DNA of 64,000 nt, taken from NCBI RefSeq assembly GCF_013001025.1, contig NZ_CP053021.1, positions 3,996,001 to 4,060,000 of the forward strand, read 5' to 3'. Below, one piece after another: positions 5,186 through 45,623 of the stretch. How positions within the stretch are numbered: position 1 is the first letter of the stretch; every line of letters starts with the position of its first letter. The DNA is from Sphingobium yanoikuyae. Its GTDB lineage: Bacteria > Pseudomonadota > Alphaproteobacteria > Sphingomonadales > Sphingomonadaceae. The translations under genes were made by a program, and so were the position numbers. Under the pieces are notes generated by a model. The model did no database searches. It was not told where the DNA came from and worked only from the letters and a program-made list of their open reading frames with translations.

Positions 5186-6217
5186 ATGTCTATTGTTATC
5201 CTTGGCGTTGATTTGGGCAAGAATGCCTGCAGTGTCGTAGGCGTTGATGCAGCAGGCGCTGTCATCGTGCGTAAGTCGATGCGCCGACAGACACTTATCG
5301 ATTACGTGACCAAGCTTCCGGCTTGCGTGATTGCAATGGAGGCGTGCTGTGGTGCCCACAACCTTGGTCGCCTTTTCGCCGCGCAGGGGCACGAAATCAG
5401 ATTGATGTCGCCGGAGTACGTACGCCCGTATGTCAAAGCGCAGAAGAATGATGATCGTGATGCGGAGGGGATTGCCGAGGCCGCCTCGCGCCCGACTATG
5501 CGCTTCGTCGAACTCAAGACTCAGGAGCAGTTGGACATCCAGACCCTCCACCGCGTCAGGTCCCGCCTGGTAGCCGAGCGCACAAACCTTATCAACCAAC
5601 TGCGGGCGATCCTCCTGGAGCGGGGGACCATTTTTCCGGCCGGCCGGCGCAAGCTGGAGTTGGGCATTGATGCCATGCTGGCCGCCGAAGATACGGCCCT
5701 ATCACCACGCTTGAAGCAACTGGTGGGTGAACTGCGCGCCGAATGGCACGAACTTGATACCAAGGTCGAGGCACTGAACGGCGAGTTTGTCGAACTGGCT
5801 CGCAATGATGCAGCTGCCCGGCGGCTCACGTCCATCCCCGGCATCGGCACGTTGAACGCAACCGCTTTGATTGCAGCCGTGGGCGATGCCAGCAGCTTTG
5901 CCAAAGCGCGAGACTTGGGTGCTTGGCTCGGCTTGGTACCCAGGCAACATACTACCGGCGGCAAGCCCCGGCTGCTCGGCATCTCCAAGCGTGGCAACAC
6001 CTATTTGCGCACTTTGCTCATCCATGGCGCCCGGGCAGCATTACCGTCACTGGCGCGCAGCGAAACCCCGCTGGGACGTTGGTTGACAGGAATGATCGAG
6101 CGAGGAGTTCATCGCAACGCAATCGTCGTCGCATTGGCTAATAAACTGGCGCGGATCGCTTGGGCAGCCCTTCGCAAAGAAGTGAGCTTCGAACGCGGCT
6201 ATCCAGCAGCGGCATAA
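5186..6217 (+). CDS. IS110-family transposase (DEDD / serine recombinase-like)
   Basis: This 343-residue protein has the two IS110 domains. The N-terminal RuvC-like DEDD domain shows D9 (GVDLGK), E52 (AMEACCG) and the D89-x-x-D92 pair in KNDDRDAEG. The C-terminal Transposase_20 domain contains SIPGIGTLNATALIA and the LLGISKRGN motif with S267, the presumed nucleophile. The enzyme is expected to excise a circular form and insert it site-specifically, guided by an RNA from the element. I chose ATG 5186 because GGAAAGGAG precedes it and the protein then begins like the family (ILGVDLGKN). The frame is open further upstream, into the autotransporter, but that part is not transposase. The gene looks intact, with no frameshift. 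Confidence 0.95.
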   Translation: MSIVILGVDLGKNACSVVGVDAAGAVIVRKSMRRQTLIDYVTKLPACVIAMEACCGAHNLGRLFAAQGHEIRLMSPEYVRPYVKAQKNDDRDAEGIAEAASRPTMRFVELKTQEQLDIQTLHRVRSRLVAERTNLINQLRAILLERGTIFPAGRRKLELGIDAMLAAEDTALSPRLKQLVGELRAEWHELDTKVEALNGEFVELARNDAAARRLTSIPGIGTLNATALIAAVGDASSFAKARDLGAWLGLVPRQHTTGGKPRLLGISKRGNTYLRTLLIHGARAALPSLARSETPLGRWLTGMIERGVHRNAIVVALANKLARIAWAALRKEVSFERGYPAAA

Positions 6218-6454
6218 CGGATCGGCTGCGTGCTTCTGCGCGCGTAGCCCAACGATGTTTGCAGGAAGGATCGTGAAGATGGCCTGACAGTCGATCGGCG
6301 TCTGGAAAGCCCGGGCAAAAAAATGGCACCTGTTGCCGGTTCCCTTATTGTGGCTCCAGACGTGCGGATGTCCATCTTGGCCACGGGATGCTCCCGTGAG
6401 ACCGCATACGTTGACGCAGACTGATCAGAACACCGTAAAATCCTACTTGCAAAC
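6218..6454 (+). ncRNA. Candidate bridge RNA (seekRNA) in the non-coding right end of the IS
   Basis: IS110/IS1111 elements make a structured RNA from their longer non-coding end that pairs with donor and target DNA; in IS1111 types this is the right end. Here the stretch between the transposase stop and the right inverted repeat carries no gene but is rich in pairing. CGTCTGGA (6299-6306) pairs with TCCAGACG (6355-6362), enclosing a 48-base domain with an A7 run and smaller stems. A separate hairpin CACGGGA/TCCCGTG lies at 6382-6398. The exact 5' and 3' ends and the guide loops are not determinable by eye. Confidence 0.45.
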
Positions 6455-6466
6455 GGGGCGGGCCAT
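6455..6466 (-). repeat. Right subterminal inverted repeat of the IS1111-type element
   Basis: GGGGCGGGCCAT is the exact complement of the left repeat at 5120-5131. It is followed by ACG and then the T-run that I attribute to the interrupted autotransporter terminator. Confidence 0.8.
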
Positions 6467-6540
6467 ACGTTTTTTTGCGGGCAGCCCCCTCCGGCCAATT
6501 ACCGATTGCCTCTGCGCCTCTCCGCTCGGACAAATGCTGC

Positions 6541-7674
6541 ATGAAAGACCATGGCCCGCCCCTGTCCCGCCGGCACATGCTGTCGCTGACGGCGGGCGCC
6601 ATCCCGGCCCTGTCCTGCGCGCCCGGCCTGGCCGTCGCGCCGCCTTCCGGTCTCGACGCCATCGCCCGCAGCCGGGGCCTGCGCTTTGGCACCGCCGTAT
6701 CGCCCACCCATCTGGATGATCCGGCCTTTGCCCAGTTGATCGTCCGGGAATGTTCGGTGCTGACCGCCGAGAATAATTTCAAATGGAAATATCTCGAAAC
6801 CAAGGAGGGTCAGCGCAACCCGGCAAAGGCGCTGCGCGTCCTGCGCTTCGCCAGCCGCCACCGCATGTCGCCGCGGGGCCATACGTTCGTCTGGAATCAG
6901 GATGATCGGGTGCCCGGCTGGCTGATCGCCAATGAGGCTGCGCTGACACAGAAGGGGGGCGCGCCGCTCATCGCCCTGATGAACGACCATGCCCGCTATC
7001 TTGCGACCACCTTCCCCCAGATCGAATCATGGGACTGCGTGAACGAGGCGTTCGTCGTCCAGAGCGGACAATTGAAGAACTCGATCTACACCCGCATCCT
7101 CGGCATGGGCTTCTTCGACCTCGCCTTTCAACTGATGGCGCAATATGCCCCCCATGCGCAGCGCGTCTATAATGGCAATATGAGCTGGGAGCAGAATCCC
7201 GATCATCGCGACGCCGTGCTGCGCGTGCTGGAACAGGCGCTCAAGCGCGGCGTCCCGGTCGATGCCATCGGCATACAGAGCCATCTGGGCAATACGCTCG
7301 GCCGCGGCCGCGACGAACGGGCCTGGAATCGCTTCCTTGCCGAACTGGACGCCATGGGCATGACGGTGCTGGTCACCGAACTGGATTGCGCCGACCGCCA
7401 TCTGAGCGACCAGGAGCCGGCCAGACGCGATGCCGAAATCGCCGCCTTTGTGAAGGGCTATCTCGACATCACGCTCAGCCATCGCAATGTCTCCCAGATC
7501 ATCTGCTGGGGCCTCAGCGATCGCTATTCCAATCTCAATCGCGACAGCTATCCGACCCGGAGGCGCCGGTCCGACGGCCTGCCCATGCGCGGCAACCCCT
7601 TCGACGATGCCCTGCGGCCCAAACCCTTTTATGATGCGATCGCCGCCGCCATCGCCGCCTGTCCGGTGCGATGA
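6541..7674 (+). CDS. Glycoside hydrolase family 10 endo-1,4-beta-xylanase
   Basis: The 377-residue protein is a retaining xylanase that would cut beta-1,4-xylan in the periplasm or outside the cell. GH10 landmarks are visible: NNFKWKYLE, the GHTFVWNQD strand, the acid/base E169 in SWDCVNEA and the nucleophile E280 in LVTELD, then CWGLSDRYSN near the C-terminus. The N-terminus MKDHGPPLSRRHMLSLTAGA looks like a twin-arginine signal, with a twin Arg followed by a hydrophobic stretch. ATG 6541 is preferred because the frame upstream begins only at the IS boundary. The IS insertion lies about 70 bp upstream, so the native promoter was probably displaced. Expression may depend on the IS or on read-through from the autotransporter gene. 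Confidence 0.9.
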   Translation: MKDHGPPLSRRHMLSLTAGAIPALSCAPGLAVAPPSGLDAIARSRGLRFGTAVSPTHLDDPAFAQLIVRECSVLTAENNFKWKYLETKEGQRNPAKALRVLRFASRHRMSPRGHTFVWNQDDRVPGWLIANEAALTQKGGAPLIALMNDHARYLATTFPQIESWDCVNEAFVVQSGQLKNSIYTRILGMGFFDLAFQLMAQYAPHAQRVYNGNMSWEQNPDHRDAVLRVLEQALKRGVPVDAIGIQSHLGNTLGRGRDERAWNRFLAELDAMGMTVLVTELDCADRHLSDQEPARRDAEIAAFVKGYLDITLSHRNVSQIICWGLSDRYSNLNRDSYPTRRRRSDGLPMRGNPFDDALRPKPFYDAIAAAIAACPVR

Positions 7675-40489: not shown

Positions 40490-40565
40490 GCCCGGGTAGC
40501 TCAGTTGGTAGAGCATGCGATTGAAAATCGCAGTGTCGGCGGTTCGAATCCGTCCCCGGGCACCA
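40490..40565 (+). tRNA. tRNA-Phe (anticodon GAA), attachment site of a genomic island
   Basis: The 76 bases fold completely: acceptor GCCCGGG/CCCGGGC, D-stem GCTC/GAGC, anticodon stem TGCGA/TCGCA with loop TTGAAAA (anticodon GAA) and T-arm around TTCGAAT, plus encoded CCA. The gene is intact. Its last 17 bases begin a 127-bp sequence that recurs inverted at 43643-43769, and a degenerate copy of its 3' end lies at 45600-45623. It is the integration site of the following island. Confidence 0.97.
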
Positions 40566-40675
40566 TTTGTTCTCATCATATTGAAAACATTGGGAAATCG
40601 TCAGAAAGACGGTCTTCGAACCTTCACTCCCCCGCAGTCCTGCTACACAGTCGGGTAGGCGAAACCGTTGGAAAC
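40549..40675 (+). repeat. 127-bp inverted repeat, left copy, including the tRNA attachment core
   Basis: This stretch starts inside tRNA-Phe (TCCGTCCCCGGGCACCA) and runs into the island. It recurs inverted at 43643-43769 with a single mismatch, in the CCA. It lies directly upstream of the integrase start. Confidence 0.9.
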
Positions 40676-40744: not shown

Positions 40745-42151
40745 ATGTGTTTACGGGGTGGCCAGTTCTACCTGCGACGCCGCGTTCCACATGATGTCCG
40801 CGCGCATATGGGCCGTGCTGAGATTTGGCGGTCTTTGAGGACGGACAGTCTGAAATGCGCTGTTCGACGCTTCCCGCTGATCGTCTCCCAAGTCGAAGCC
40901 GAAATCGAAGGCGTGAGGGCGCAAGCGGGATTGGCCGTCGATCCAATGCTGCTCGCGGCGGTCGGAGCGGCCGCTCCAATGGCGCAGCGCGTGCCCGTGT
41001 TTACGATGGCATCAAGCGGTCCAGCGGAGCAGCCGGTCATATCACCCCAACTACCGCTGCTGACCTTCGGCGAGGTCTACGACCGTTATATCAACGATCC
41101 GACACGAGGCTGGTCCGTTCGGACGCGGAACTCATATGACACATGCCGAAAGCTGGCTGTCGCCATTATTGGCGCTGATCTACCGATGCGCGATTTCGCC
41201 CGATCGCACTGTCGGGATTTTATAGAGACGCTGAGATTCTTGCCGAAGAACGCGAACAAGCGATTTCCGCATCTTTCACCTCGACAGGCGGCGACGAAGG
41301 CGCGCGATGGGAAATTGGACAATCTCATTAGCTCGGCCAATGTGAACGCATACCTGACTGACCTGTCGAGCTTCTTGAATTGGGCGGTTCAGGAGGAATA
41401 TCTGGATCGGAACCCAGCCCGAGGCCTTCGGCTGCCTGATGAAATCGCGAAGCGCAACAAACGCTTTCCCTTCTCCCCAATGCAGTTGAAGAAGATTTTC
41501 AACGCCCCGCTCTATCGCGGTTGCGTGGATGGCGAGCGCAATTATTTCCTTCCAGGAACCGAGCGTCCACAGAACGCCCGGTTCTGGATTCCGCTGATCG
41601 CGCTCCACACAGGGATGCGGCTCAATGAAATCTGCCAACTCGATGTGACGGATTTGCGGGCTGTCGATGGCATCCAGTGCTTCGTGGTGAGCGAAGAGTC
41701 ATTGGTCGGCAGCACCGACAAGCAGTTGAAGACAAGGACCAGCGAGCGGGTGATTCCGGTTCACCCGAACCTTTTCGATTTCGGGCTGCTCCAATTTGTC
41801 GAGAAGCGTCGCAGAGCCGGTGAGAGGAAGTTGTTCGGGGAGATAGCTCCGGGCCCCAGGGGCATCCGCGCCGTCGCCCTTTCAAAATGGTTCACCCTCT
41901 TCACTCGAAAGGCAGGGGCGGCACAGGATCGAACCTGCTTCCATAGCTTCCGGCATAATTTTCGAGACGAATTGAGAGCGGCCCGGATCGACCACGATGT
42001 CGCTCTGGCGATTGGAGGCTGGACGAACGGTGCCTCGACGAAGAGTAATGCGTCAGAAAACTACGGCCGAGGCCATGGGGTAAAGATGCTTCACGACGCG
42101 ATCGTCCGATTAAGGTTCGCCGATGTCGATCTTGAGCACCTGAAAACATAG
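40745..42151 (+). CDS. Tyrosine recombinase / phage-type integrase
   Basis: The 468-residue protein begins with a DUF6538-like segment (LRGGQFYLRRRVPHDVRAHMG), then an alpha-helical SAM-like core-binding domain (YDRYINDPTRGWSVRTRNSY) and a tyrosine-recombinase catalytic domain. The catalytic residues are R292 (HTGMRLNEICQLD), H400-x-x-R403 (HSFRHNF), W in GGWTNG and the nucleophile Y440 (ASENYGRG). The frame is open back through the tRNA, but the protein similarity starts only at M 40745. No strong ribosome binding site is visible, so an upstream alternative start cannot be excluded. It presumably integrates the element at tRNA-Phe. Confidence 0.88.
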   Translation: MCLRGGQFYLRRRVPHDVRAHMGRAEIWRSLRTDSLKCAVRRFPLIVSQVEAEIEGVRAQAGLAVDPMLLAAVGAAAPMAQRVPVFTMASSGPAEQPVISPQLPLLTFGEVYDRYINDPTRGWSVRTRNSYDTCRKLAVAIIGADLPMRDFARSHCRDFIETLRFLPKNANKRFPHLSPRQAATKARDGKLDNLISSANVNAYLTDLSSFLNWAVQEEYLDRNPARGLRLPDEIAKRNKRFPFSPMQLKKIFNAPLYRGCVDGERNYFLPGTERPQNARFWIPLIALHTGMRLNEICQLDVTDLRAVDGIQCFVVSEESLVGSTDKQLKTRTSERVIPVHPNLFDFGLLQFVEKRRRAGERKLFGEIAPGPRGIRAVALSKWFTLFTRKAGAAQDRTCFHSFRHNFRDELRAARIDHDVALAIGGWTNGASTKSNASENYGRGHGVKMLHDAIVRLRFADVDLEHLKT

Positions 42152-42358: not shown

Positions 42359-42796
42359 ATGACGCCGAGGCAGGAGCTAGTGCTGGCTGCGCTTTCCGCC
42401 GGTCAGTCCAACTCGGAACTTTCCCCGGTTCAAGCCCAGAAGCTATTTTTTTTGATCGATAAGAATGTAGCCCTAGCGCTTGGCGGACAGCAATTTAATT
42501 TCGAACCATATGATTATGGTCCGTTCGACAGCGCTGTTTATTCTGATCTCGATTGGTTGAGCGTTCCCCAGGAAGGGAGCGTAGAGATTGTCCGTAGTGG
42601 GCGCTACCGAACGTATCGACTGACTCAGCGTGGATTACAACTCGGCCAACAGCGGCTCGATCAACTCGATCCAGAAACGCGAAGTTATTTCGGCCGTGCA
42701 AAGGATTGGGTGAAGAGCCTCTCGTTCCAGGACTTGGTCCGCTCGATCTATCAAGCGTATCCTGAAACGCGCGCGAACAGCATTTTCCGGGGATGA
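42359..42796 (+). CDS. YwgA/Panacea-like winged-helix-type protein
   Basis: The 145-residue protein shows the pattern of YwgA and SocA/Panacea (DUF4065-like) proteins: SPVQAQKLFFLIDKN, then FNFEPYDYGPFDSAVYSDLDWL, an Arg-rich YRTYRLTQRGLQLGQ and a closing helix with SIYQAYPETR. The YDYGPF-x-x-x-VY-x-DLD block is the main evidence. Related domains act as antitoxins or as small regulators in toxin-antitoxin modules. The start is ATG 42359 with GGAAGG upstream. It overlaps the next gene by 4 bp (ATGA), so both are made together. Base composition is more AT-rich than the surrounding chromosome, which fits transfer. The assignment is by motif only. Confidence 0.5.
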   Translation: MTPRQELVLAALSAGQSNSELSPVQAQKLFFLIDKNVALALGGQQFNFEPYDYGPFDSAVYSDLDWLSVPQEGSVEIVRSGRYRTYRLTQRGLQLGQQRLDQLDPETRSYFGRAKDWVKSLSFQDLVRSIYQAYPETRANSIFRG

Positions 42797-43551
42797 CAGT
42801 TGTCGTAGGCTTCTACTGTCGCGATGGTATTGTCATCGGCGCCGACAGTATGCTGACACCAAGCATGGGTGGCATTAGTGTCGGTCATCACAAGGGGCAG
42901 AAGGTTCACCTGCTGTCCGGAAACCAGCTATTCGCATTCGCGGGCGACCAGGGCCAGGCGGCTCGGTTTCAGATCATGGCTGATGGCAGCCACGCTATGC
43001 CTGCAACAGTTGGCCATGCAATCGACTTCCCATTAATTTTGACGCAGTCCCTCATTCAGCAGTTCCAAAACACTGGGGTCGGACAGCAGATCGGTGTAAA
43101 CACCTTGCTCGGCTTTGAGCATGGTGGTCAGCAGCAATTATGCGTCTTCGAGGGTCTGATCCAACCTCGGTTATTAGATGCGGCTCACTATTATGTAGCG
43201 CTCGGCAGCGGAAAGCTGTCTGCGGACCCGTTTCTCCGTTTTCTCGTGGACATATTTTGCCTCAACGGCCCCCCGTCAGTTCGTGAGGCTACCTTTCTCA
43301 CAGAATGGGCAATTCAACATGTGATCGATACGAACCCAGGTGGGGTTGCAGGACCGATCCGAATTGCCGTTATGGAGCGCAACCCTGGCGGCGCATGGCA
43401 GTCGCGACTGCTGACCGATAACGAGGCAGATGACCAAGGGCAGGCGGTCGAGAGCGCAAGGCAATCCCTTAGAGATTGGCGGAACAGCCTCACTCCCCAG
43501 GAGATTGGTGAGGAAGGCAGCGAAGACATTCCGGCTCCTCCCACGTTGTAG
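42793..43551 (+). CDS. Proteasome-beta-like Ntn hydrolase (probable threonine protease)
   Basis: This 252-residue protein begins MTVVVGFYCRDGIVIGADSM. If the initiator Met is removed, the N-terminal residue is Thr. Counting from that Thr, D18 is Asp17 and K34 is Lys33, so the classical proteasome/HslV triad Thr1-Asp17-Lys33 is present at its exact spacing. The later AFAGDQGQ loop, the YYVALGSGK strand (S139, equivalent to Ser129) and DTNPGG (D179; equivalent to D-x-x-S-G with Ser replaced by Pro) agree with the fold. A C-terminal extension of about 60 residues is acidic and Pro-rich. No alpha subunit or ATPase gene is nearby, so its target and gating are unknown. It overlaps the YwgA-like gene and is probably its effector partner. 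Confidence 0.75.
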   Translation: MTVVVGFYCRDGIVIGADSMLTPSMGGISVGHHKGQKVHLLSGNQLFAFAGDQGQAARFQIMADGSHAMPATVGHAIDFPLILTQSLIQQFQNTGVGQQIGVNTLLGFEHGGQQQLCVFEGLIQPRLLDAAHYYVALGSGKLSADPFLRFLVDIFCLNGPPSVREATFLTEWAIQHVIDTNPGGVAGPIRIAVMERNPGGAWQSRLLTDNEADDQGQAVESARQSLRDWRNSLTPQEIGEEGSEDIPAPPTL

Positions 43552-43642: not shown

Positions 43643-43769
43643 GTTTCCAACGGTTTCGCCTACCCGACTGTGTAGCAGGACTGCGGGGGAGTGAAGGTTC
43701 GAAGACCGTCTTTCTGACGATTTCCCAATGTTTTCAATATGATGAGAACAAATGATGCCCGGGGACGGA
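43643..43769 (-). repeat. 127-bp inverted repeat, right copy
   Basis: Reverse complement of 40549-40675 with one mismatch (CATCA for CACCA). The integrase and the two-gene cassette lie between the two copies. Confidence 0.9.
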
Positions 43770-43847
43770 GACTGCGGCCCGGTCTGGTCGGCGTTCTCGG
43801 GATCGTCGTTGTTTTCCATGTGATTTCCTGTGTCGGCGGTATGAAGC

Positions 43848-43866
43848 CCGGGGACGGCACCGAACC
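43848..43866 (-). repeat. 19-bp inverted repeat with att-like sequence, left copy
   Basis: Its reverse complement GGTTCGGTGCCGTCCCCGG recurs at 45600-45618. It lies 5 bp beyond the 3' end of the serine recombinase gene, so this recombinase block has its own pair of inverted ends. Confidence 0.75.
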
Positions 43867-43871
43867 GGCGC

Positions 43872-44459
43872 CTATGCGGCCTGGGCCATCTGCTGCTTGA
43901 TCCGGTGGACAGTGGCAACGCCGACCTTGAGCTTGCGGGCGGCTGCATTGATGCTCGTGCCCTTGGCGAGTTCCCGCTTGATCCGGTCGGCTTTGTCCTG
44001 GTCGAGAGGTGGGCGCCCGGATTTCTTCGTGCTGCGTGCCAGGCCAGCCATGATCCGCGAACGGGTCATCTCGCGCTCGAATGCTGAGAAGACGCTGAGC
44101 ATCCCGAAGAGCGCGCGGCCGCTTGGTGTCGAGGTGTCGAGTGCCTGTTGATGGAGATACAGGTCCACTCCTCTCGCGTTGATCTCGTCCAGGAAGCCGA
44201 CGAGATGGGAGAGGGATCGTCCCAGGCGATCGACGGCCCAGGCTGCGACCATGTCGATTTCACGGCGGGCGATCATCTGCATGAGCCGGTCATAGCCGGG
44301 CCTTTTGTCGCGGCCCTTGGCGCCGGAGATGCCTTCGTCGGCCAAGGTCTCGACTACGGTCCAGCCCAACCGTTCGGCGACGGCCATAAGTTCGCGTTTC
44401 TGGTTCTCGATCGTTTGAGTGTCGGTGGAGACGCGGAGATAGAGAGCAACTCGCTTCAT
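43872..44459 (-). CDS. Serine recombinase (resolvase/invertase family)
   Basis: The 195-residue protein is a complete small serine recombinase. KRVALYLRVSTDTQTIENQ contains the nucleophile S11, and DEGISGAKGRDKRPGYDRLM, DMVAAWAVDRLGRSLSHLVGFL and TPSGRALFGMLSVFSAFERE are the resolvase core. A C-terminal helix-turn-helix (GTSINAAARKLKVGVATVHRIK) binds DNA. It is expected to cut and re-join DNA at short sites, for resolution, inversion or integration. Its stop is 5 bp from a 19-bp inverted repeat. Nothing shows which reaction it catalyses here. Confidence 0.93.
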   Translation of the reverse strand: MKRVALYLRVSTDTQTIENQKRELMAVAERLGWTVVETLADEGISGAKGRDKRPGYDRLMQMIARREIDMVAAWAVDRLGRSLSHLVGFLDEINARGVDLYLHQQALDTSTPSGRALFGMLSVFSAFEREMTRSRIMAGLARSTKKSGRPPLDQDKADRIKRELAKGTSINAAARKLKVGVATVHRIKQQMAQAA

Positions 44460-44728
44460 GCGCGATTATGTGGCGATAACATCGACTTGGTCAATGTGTT
44501 TTGGAAATATGATCGGCCATATCGATCAATAGGGAAGTGCATATCTCGTGATTGGCGGCCCTTGAAGAATGGTAACACGGTGGACTTATCGGGCTCTATT
44601 CTCAATTGAACGTCAGAATGGAACGGTTCGCCTCAATGGCAGGGCTTGGGTGTAAAGATGTGAGGCCCTCAGATGAATACGTCTCACCAGGACGCACTTC
44701 GTGTCTTGGCTTCTCGAAGGAGCCAGTC
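44460..44728. other. Spacer between divergent genes in the recombinase block
   Basis: AT-rich DNA between the serine recombinase start and the hypothetical gene at 44729. It should hold both promoters. GAAGGAG upstream of 44729 is a good ribosome binding site. No gene is visible. Confidence 0.4.
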
Positions 44729-45016
44729 ATGCCATTTTCGATCGAACACCAGAAGAACACCCCGTTGGGCATCGCAACATCCCATGCCCTGGACCGCCAT
44801 GCTGTGGCTGTGCAGGCTGCCGCCAGGACAGGGCAGCCACCCGTCCACATCATCGCCCCGGACCTGGAAATTCATCTGGGAAGCCAGAAGACCAATGCCC
44901 TGGTCGGGCGGATGATCCGTGAATGGCTTGGCCCGGCCTTTAAGGTGAAGGGGCGTAAGAAGTGGCCCCGCCAGCATGGCACCGAGTCTGGCGCCGTCTA
45001 CGCTCCAGTTGCCTGA
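44729..45016 (+). CDS. Hypothetical protein
   Basis: The 95-residue protein (MPFSIEHQKNTPLGIATSHA at the start) contains HAVAVQAAARTGQPPVHIIAPDLEIHLG and a basic C-terminus with GPAFKVKGRKKWPRQHG. No membrane segment or signal is visible, and I do not recognise the family. ATG 44729 follows GAAGGAG; the frame is open further upstream to 44606 without a good start. It ends two bases before the truncated recombinase, which it may once have abutted as part of one mobile unit. Confidence 0.55.
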   Translation: MPFSIEHQKNTPLGIATSHALDRHAVAVQAAARTGQPPVHIIAPDLEIHLGSQKTNALVGRMIREWLGPAFKVKGRKKWPRQHGTESGAVYAPVA

Positions 45017-45018
45017 CC

Positions 45019-45528
45019 GTGTTGCGAGGGTGGGCGGTGCTCACCCTCTTCACTGACGAAGGGATCAGCGGTGCGAAGGGACGAGAAAAACGTCCCGGCC
45101 TTGATGCTCTTCTCAAAGGTATCGCTCGCCGTGAGTTCGACATGGTGGCCGCATGGTCGGTATGCCGCCTCGGTCGATCCCTCCAACATCTCGTTGGCCT
45201 GCTCGGCGATATGACCGTGTGCGGCGTCGATCTCTATCTCCATGTGCAGGCCCTCGATACCAGCACGCCCAGCGGACGTGCCATGTTCGGCATGTTGGGA
45301 GTCTTCTCAGAATTTGAGAGGGCGATGATCAGCGAAAGGGTCAAGGCTGGCATCGCACGCAGCGGGAAAAAGGGCGGCCGTCCTCCGGTTGATCCCATCA
45401 AGGTCGACAAGATCAGGCGGGCGCTCCTGAAGGGCACCAGTATCAACGAAACCGCCCGGAAGCATTGTGTCGGCGTCGCTACGGTCCATCGTATCAAGGT
45501 CGCTATGGCCGAACCGATGGCCGCCTGA
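45019..45528 (+). pseudogene. Serine recombinase lacking its N-terminal catalytic segment
   Basis: From about 45043 the translation (FTDEGISGAKGREKRPGLDA, then DMVAAWSVCRLGRSLQHLVGLL, TPSGRAMFGMLGVFSEFERA and the helix-turn-helix GTSINETARKHCVGVATVHRIK) aligns with residues 38-195 of the recombinase at 43872-44459. The first 37 residues, including the YLRVSTD nucleophilic Ser, are missing. Upstream sequence encodes unrelated residues. It cannot be catalytically active, but the DNA-binding part could still be made from GTG 45019. The two proteins are clearly related but not recent copies. Confidence 0.8.
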
Positions 45529-45599
45529 CCATCGTGGCCTACGATCGGCGCTGACGCTGCCGGTCCACCTTCACTTCATCATCAGCCCGGAATGTCGGT

Positions 45600-45623
45600 G
45601 GTTCGGTGCCGTCCCCGGCACCA
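45600..45623 (+). repeat. Degenerate tRNA-Phe 3' end: probable right end (attR) of the island
   Basis: GGTTCGGTGCCGTCCCCGGCACCA resembles the tRNA-Phe 3' end (40541-40565), with changes in the loop and one G missing. It is also the right copy of the 19-bp inverted repeat at 43848-43866. The DNA to its right is ordinary chromosome, so the island probably spans about 40566-45623. Confidence 0.65.

Follow-up and report, generated by a model that had tools for sequence, protein, structure and literature searches.

What does a proteasome-like protein do when its nearest neighbour is a small protein of antitoxin type and both sit behind a tRNA gene? The question is raised by two open reading frames of Sphingobium yanoikuyae, found in a 64,000-nt stretch of contig NZ_CP053021.1 (positions 3,996,001 to 4,060,000; hereafter the window). 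An earlier note, made from the letters alone, had described the two genes as the only cargo of an integrase segment on a tRNA island. Both reading frames, here called A and B, were confirmed, as was their 4-bp overlap (ATGA at 42793-42796), and a ribosome-binding-like GGAAGG precedes the ATG at 42359 (by eye). The features of the locus are as follows:

40490-40565, + strand: tRNA-Phe (GAA), found with ARAGORN; integration site
40549-40675, + strand: left arm of an inverted repeat, 127 nt, starting inside the tRNA 3' end
40745-42151, + strand: tyrosine integrase (PF00589, E 2.8e-9; DUF6538, E 9.3e-16; phrog_1 integrase, E 2e-34)
42359-42796, + strand: gene A, 145 aa, Panacea/YwgA-related, with a DarG-like fold; proposed antitoxin or inhibitor
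42793-43551, + strand: gene B, 252 aa, proteasome-beta-like Ntn protein with a PxxP tail; proposed protease effector
43643-43769, - strand: right arm of the inverted repeat, an inverted copy of the tRNA 3' end and adjoining DNA
43872-44459, - strand: resolvase-type gene (Pfam)
44962-45525, + strand: resolvase-type gene (Pfam)

The arms of the inverted repeat (40549-40675 and the reverse complement of 43643-43769) were identical at 126 of 127 positions and bracket the integrase, A and B. The integrase reading frame is open from 40406, with a probable start at 40745, just downstream of the tRNA-Phe gene, and A and B come after it. No alpha-subunit or ATPase gene, the partners of a 20S proteasome, lies between the arms, as had been said of the neighbourhood. 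From the integrase to the right arm the two genes are indeed the only cargo, but the tRNA-linked region extends to about 45,620 and holds the two resolvase-type genes. The GC content was 0.527 for A and 0.557 for B, against 0.64 for the window. Promoter-like sites (2, against 1.0 in shuffles) and terminator-like sites (1, against 1.4) showed no excess over chance.

In four relatives compared with the window, the left flank was kept and similarity ended directly past the tRNA-Phe gene, at 40568-40573. Other DNA was found at the tRNA-Phe gene, and the right flank was 52 kb off (G029), elsewhere or not found. Because similarity ends right after the tRNA in all four, the tRNA-Phe gene looks like a variable integration site. 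Partial copies of the tRNA 3' end were also found beyond the right arm, one inverted (43841-43878) and one direct (45588-45618); together with the two resolvase-type genes (43830-45620) they suggest several successive insertions at this tRNA. In the 127-nt repeat the attachment-site copies stand in inverted order, which could allow the integrase to flip the segment, not excise it.

The assignment of B to the proteasome family held. PF00227 matched B with E 2.6e-5 (24.4 bits, cut-off 22.4) and matched 81 of 120 B relatives at E<=0.01, and structure prediction agreed, giving an alpha-beta-beta-alpha Ntn/proteasome fold. By sequence alone the link to solved proteasomes was weak (best E 0.11; profile 0.021). 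The solved proteins among the 50 structural matches listed shared 12-24% identity with B, and BPH, HslV and connectase were absent from those 50, which excludes nothing. The prediction was made for single chains, with no A-B interface in view.

The residues marked in B were Thr2, Asp18, Lys37, Gly51 and Ser139. A catalytic triad had been claimed at Thr1, Asp17 and Lys33, counted after Met removal. Its threonine and aspartate stood (Thr2 and Asp18 were each found in 119 of 120 relatives, with one gap), but its lysine, Lys34 of the full protein, proved a coincidence of counting. That column held K in 58, H in 50, T in 10 and N in 2 of the 120 relatives, and Lys34 was rejected as the catalytic lysine in favour of Lys37, which was K in 120 of 120 and aligned with the corresponding lysine of the HslV of the same genome. 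The N-terminal Thr and the putative equivalents of Asp17 and Lys33 were invariant in the 17-row alignment A6. As for the further motifs, GSG is present at 138-140, with Ser139 kept in 113 of 120 relatives; D-x-x-x-GG is present too, but its Asp179 was kept in 85 of 120. A C-terminal [AVITML]PxxP was found in 112 of 120 relatives (shuffled mean 21, maximum 31). This tail motif, at about 43520-43548, lies in the low-confidence C-terminus of the predicted structure.

With the proteasome-like proteins (20S beta, HslV, Anbu, BPH and connectase) B shares the predicted Ntn fold, the Thr/Asp/Lys set, GSG and the lack of a propeptide, and between the repeat arms there is no dedicated ATPase. It is also predicted to have strand S12 and the C-terminal helix H5, elements that PMC8665760 reports for Anbu and others; they would speak against HslV-like families such as AAH, which are described there as lacking both. 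Two other PF00227 matches were found in the genome (G000:C1 2019448 and 1123867), by eye an HslV gene followed by HslU and an Anbu-like gene. Counting B, the cell would hold three proteasome-family proteins (by eye). No PADLOC family matched B at E<=1; a weak DitB match (E 0.0048) was seen in one of the 17 deep B members.

For gene A, the label of Panacea-like antitoxin gained support from its relatives and its predicted fold, but not from a Pfam match of the window protein itself. No Pfam family matched A of the window at E<=1, so PF13274 (SocA_Panacea) was not reached, and this family matched 18 of 120 A relatives (best 2.2e-7). The full-length structural match was to DarG (its C-terminal part, in 7yk3), an antitoxin complexed with its toxin, and the winged-helix part also resembled MarR/PadR regulators. 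Sequence comparison of A with solved structures gave no match at E<=1; the best profile match (0.033) was to AspA. In PADLOC, A matched PDC-M19A over 124 of 294 positions. The PADLOC type I specificity-subunit model matched 101 of 120 A relatives (alignment A4; best E 1e-10), more than the DarG model did, so DarG is not the sole family that resembles A. No described PADLOC anti-phage system was matched by both A and B.

The pairing of A and B is far broader than the earlier note could know, reaching distant bacteria and viral contigs. Of the two outcomes that the note had named as fatal to its idea, a structure with no Ntn fold and homologues of the two genes that never stand together, neither was found. 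At all 11 other loci from the B searches (L002-L010, L014 and L015) an A gene adjoined B, and no locus from these searches lacked A. A was directly upstream of B in L002-L010 and L014 and convergent with it in L015. Five further pairs came through A searches (L021 and L025-L028), giving 17 pairs with the window. The sampling behind these counts is uneven, since eight of the loci were drawn from viral sequences and these five owe their discovery to A. Ten of the 17 junctions have a 4-nt overlap, two overlap by 1 nt, four have gaps of 1-25 nt, and L015 has a 4-nt overlap of gene ends. The pair has the layout of a type II toxin-antitoxin system, a small two-gene unit with an adjacent antitoxin-like gene. 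L015 (7388-8637) is the sole locus of the 17 not in A-then-B order; with its two genes convergent, operon coupling is not required.

B identities among the 17 pairs were as low as 21%. The pairwise distances of A and B were correlated, with r 0.79 over the 17 pairs (0 of 9999 permutations) and 0.61 in the 10 closest (4 of 9999); at the level of sequence this shows joint inheritance, not contact. Among metagenome contigs, the exact length of one of the 120 B contigs listed recurred in at least 17 of the 54 A rows nearest to the window protein, against a mean of 0.6 and a maximum of 4 in a control with offset, which is no more than suggestive. A deep B profile scan of the viral collection gave eight loci, all within the 17 pairs, with a profile (A6) that contains the five B proteins found through A.

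A was in some cases found alone. The 13 A-side viral loci represented 11 distinct ones, nine of them with B. L020 is one of these nine; as no start codon was found for its incomplete B frame, it does not count toward the 17 pairs. Two distinct viral loci had no B in the DNA fetched: L022 (the same as L023 and L024) and L029. At L022 a lone A-type gene (5977-6423) stands beside a terminase-like gene (by eye), and the viral contig of L029 carries two A-type genes in tandem (5995-7214). A-type genes of this kind are possibly lone antitoxins or decoys. In the class sample, four genomes had strong A hits (E below 1e-50), three of them with B and one, G113, lacking it; three further A hits were weak. 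Weak A-like matches at L034-L036 (E 1e-6 to 1e-4) were set aside. L016, whose contig is of equal length, was taken as L005 again and counted once, and L017-L019 and L037-L044 repeat earlier contigs.

B was rare. It was found in one of 100 relatives (the genome of the window), in four of 385 class genomes (the same genome included, and one of the four set aside as spurious) and in two of 398 phylum genomes (again with that genome). A single-sequence B scan of the genomes found no relatives and an alignment-based scan gave six loci; the last protein search, which scored the best 7,999 of its candidates, gave at least 848 homologues. Neither B nor distant relatives were found in 50,697 phage records or 72,556 plasmid records. 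In the family of G243, the one other member available gave a weak hit to residues 1-58 only; a short second hit in G243 itself and the hit in G342, both confined to that span, were left out of the B counts. In the family of G399, no B was found in 12 other members, several of them incomplete. Two candidates were dismissed: L013 of G264 (E 1.1e-4) was a weak match within a 485-aa frame that A6 did not match, and L046 of G730 was HslV-like by eye.

Neighbours of the pair were surveyed through 20 proteins picked by eye, with no background control, 14 of which had a Pfam match at E<=1e-5. The genes noted near the pairs were:

L002: portal gene, about 2.4 kb away
L003: PIN domain
L004: integrase
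L005: relaxase
L006: type I modification genes
L007: serine recombinase; tRNA-Gln
L008: terminase gene, followed by A
L009: type I restriction R, S and M genes
L010: DNA polymerase beta clamp
L021: DNA methylase
L025: P22-like portal gene, directly after B

Mobile or modification genes lay within about 7 kb of the pair at six of nine genome loci (the window, L002 and L004-L007), and the mobile setting proposed for the window is thereby supported there and at most genome loci. The other eight loci were drawn from the viral collection, so their context is not independent evidence. L014 and L015 showed no mobile gene by eye, and the neighbours of L014 look like nusA/infB and ilvC.

Since A sometimes occurs without B but never the reverse in the B searches, since A has a DarG-like fold and since the contexts are mobile, the likeliest of the readings is that A restrains B, the two forming a module of toxin-antitoxin-like or abortive-infection type. 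That it is a horizontally moving two-gene module of this kind, with A as the inhibitor of the protease B, we put at slightly below an even chance. How A would bind and inhibit B, what would set B free, what B would act on and in what assembly, we infer as follows. B would be an Ntn protease of the proteasome family; removal of Met1 would uncover its Thr, and it would assemble with neither alpha subunits nor an ATPase of its own. A, which resembles in build the DarG part of the DarTG complex, would bind B and keep it inactive or unassembled. Were A lost or displaced, for example when a phage infects or the element itself is lost, B would be freed and would degrade or nick proteins, and the cell or the phage would be stopped.

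Other readings of the pair give A or B a different task. A may be an adaptor or substrate receptor that feeds clients to B, with B a small compartmental protease and A in place of the ATPase or alpha subunit, much as SocA brings SocB to ClpXP. SocA, a Panacea protein, is indeed described as a proteolytic adaptor in PMC8832971, an alpha subunit or AAA+ gene is missing between the repeat arms, and the conserved tail of B may be a docking motif. The same article, however, reports Panacea antitoxins other than SocA that neutralise with no need of ClpXP or Lon, and the best structural match of A is an antitoxin in a toxin complex, no adaptor; we regard this reading as unlikely, though deserving of some weight. 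It is rather improbable that B degrades damaged proteins in general and without ATP, as has been suggested for BPH, or is a connectase-like ligase, with A a mere transcriptional or assembly partner and the whole part of ordinary accessory metabolism. Such roles are proposed for uncapped proteasome homologues in PMC8665760, and L014 and L015 lie outside obvious mobile elements (by eye), but the patchy distribution, the foreign GC content and the mobile neighbours at most genome loci fit a selfish or defence module better.

A proteasome-type threonine protease normally works in an assembled chamber, which counts against a switch of the ImmR/ImmA kind, with A as a winged-helix repressor and B as an antirepressor protease acting on the element or operon. 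The full-length match of A to DarG, no DNA-binding protein, and the persistence of the pair amid varied neighbours, with no integrase seen in L014 and L015, also make this quite improbable. The portal genes of L002 and L025 and the terminase of L008 could mean that the pair is phage-borne and serves the phage, in superinfection exclusion or head-protein processing, and is sometimes domesticated. Its occurrence near an integrase (the window and L004), a serine recombinase (L007) and a relaxase (L005), and the lack by eye of phage genes in L014 and L015, leave this explanation little probability.

The toxin-antitoxin-like reading was also compared with described systems. In DarTG, the partner of DarG is the ADP-ribosyltransferase DarT, whereas that of A is a protease-fold protein; DarG carries a macrodomain, which A lacks. 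The PanAT systems of PMC8832971 (2022) resemble A and B in having a small antitoxin or antitoxin-like gene beside a toxin or toxin-like gene, in partner swapping and in prophage occurrence, and their GPV motif seems, in our unaligned comparison, to correspond to GPF in A. The terms proteasome, peptidase and Ntn are absent from the main text of that article, which names proteases as occasional accessory third genes. They are likewise absent from the main text of PMC10440598 (2023), which treats ImmA proteases. The ImmA/ImmR and RosmerTA systems, as described there, also pair a protease with an HTH-type protein or toxin on mobile elements, but their protease is an ImmA domain serving as antitoxin or antirepressor, unlike the role proposed for B. 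Fuchs et al. (2021; PMC8665760) describe 22 new families of proteasome homologues, with no genomic context or co-occurrence hinting at function, whereas B has a fixed partner gene. No description of the A-B pairing was found in titles and abstract openings of the open-licence literature, among the matches listed, which is not proof of absence.

A stronger form of the proposal, which we hold only tentatively and with considerable doubt, is that of an immune or addiction module in which a free-standing proteasome-type threonine protease is the killer and a DarG/Panacea-type antitoxin restrains it; among proteasome homologues B would then be the first to combine an obligate regulatory partner with use as a weapon. 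For many proteasome homologues of bacteria no function is known, and a fixed antitoxin-like partner makes one of them accessible to tests. Should the pair prove to be a toxin-antitoxin or defence module, proteolysis of the proteasome type would be added to the self-destruct or anti-phage effectors of bacteria, DarG/Panacea-type domains would acquire a partner of proteasome fold, and the finding would matter for understanding the action of compartmental proteases that lack an ATPase.
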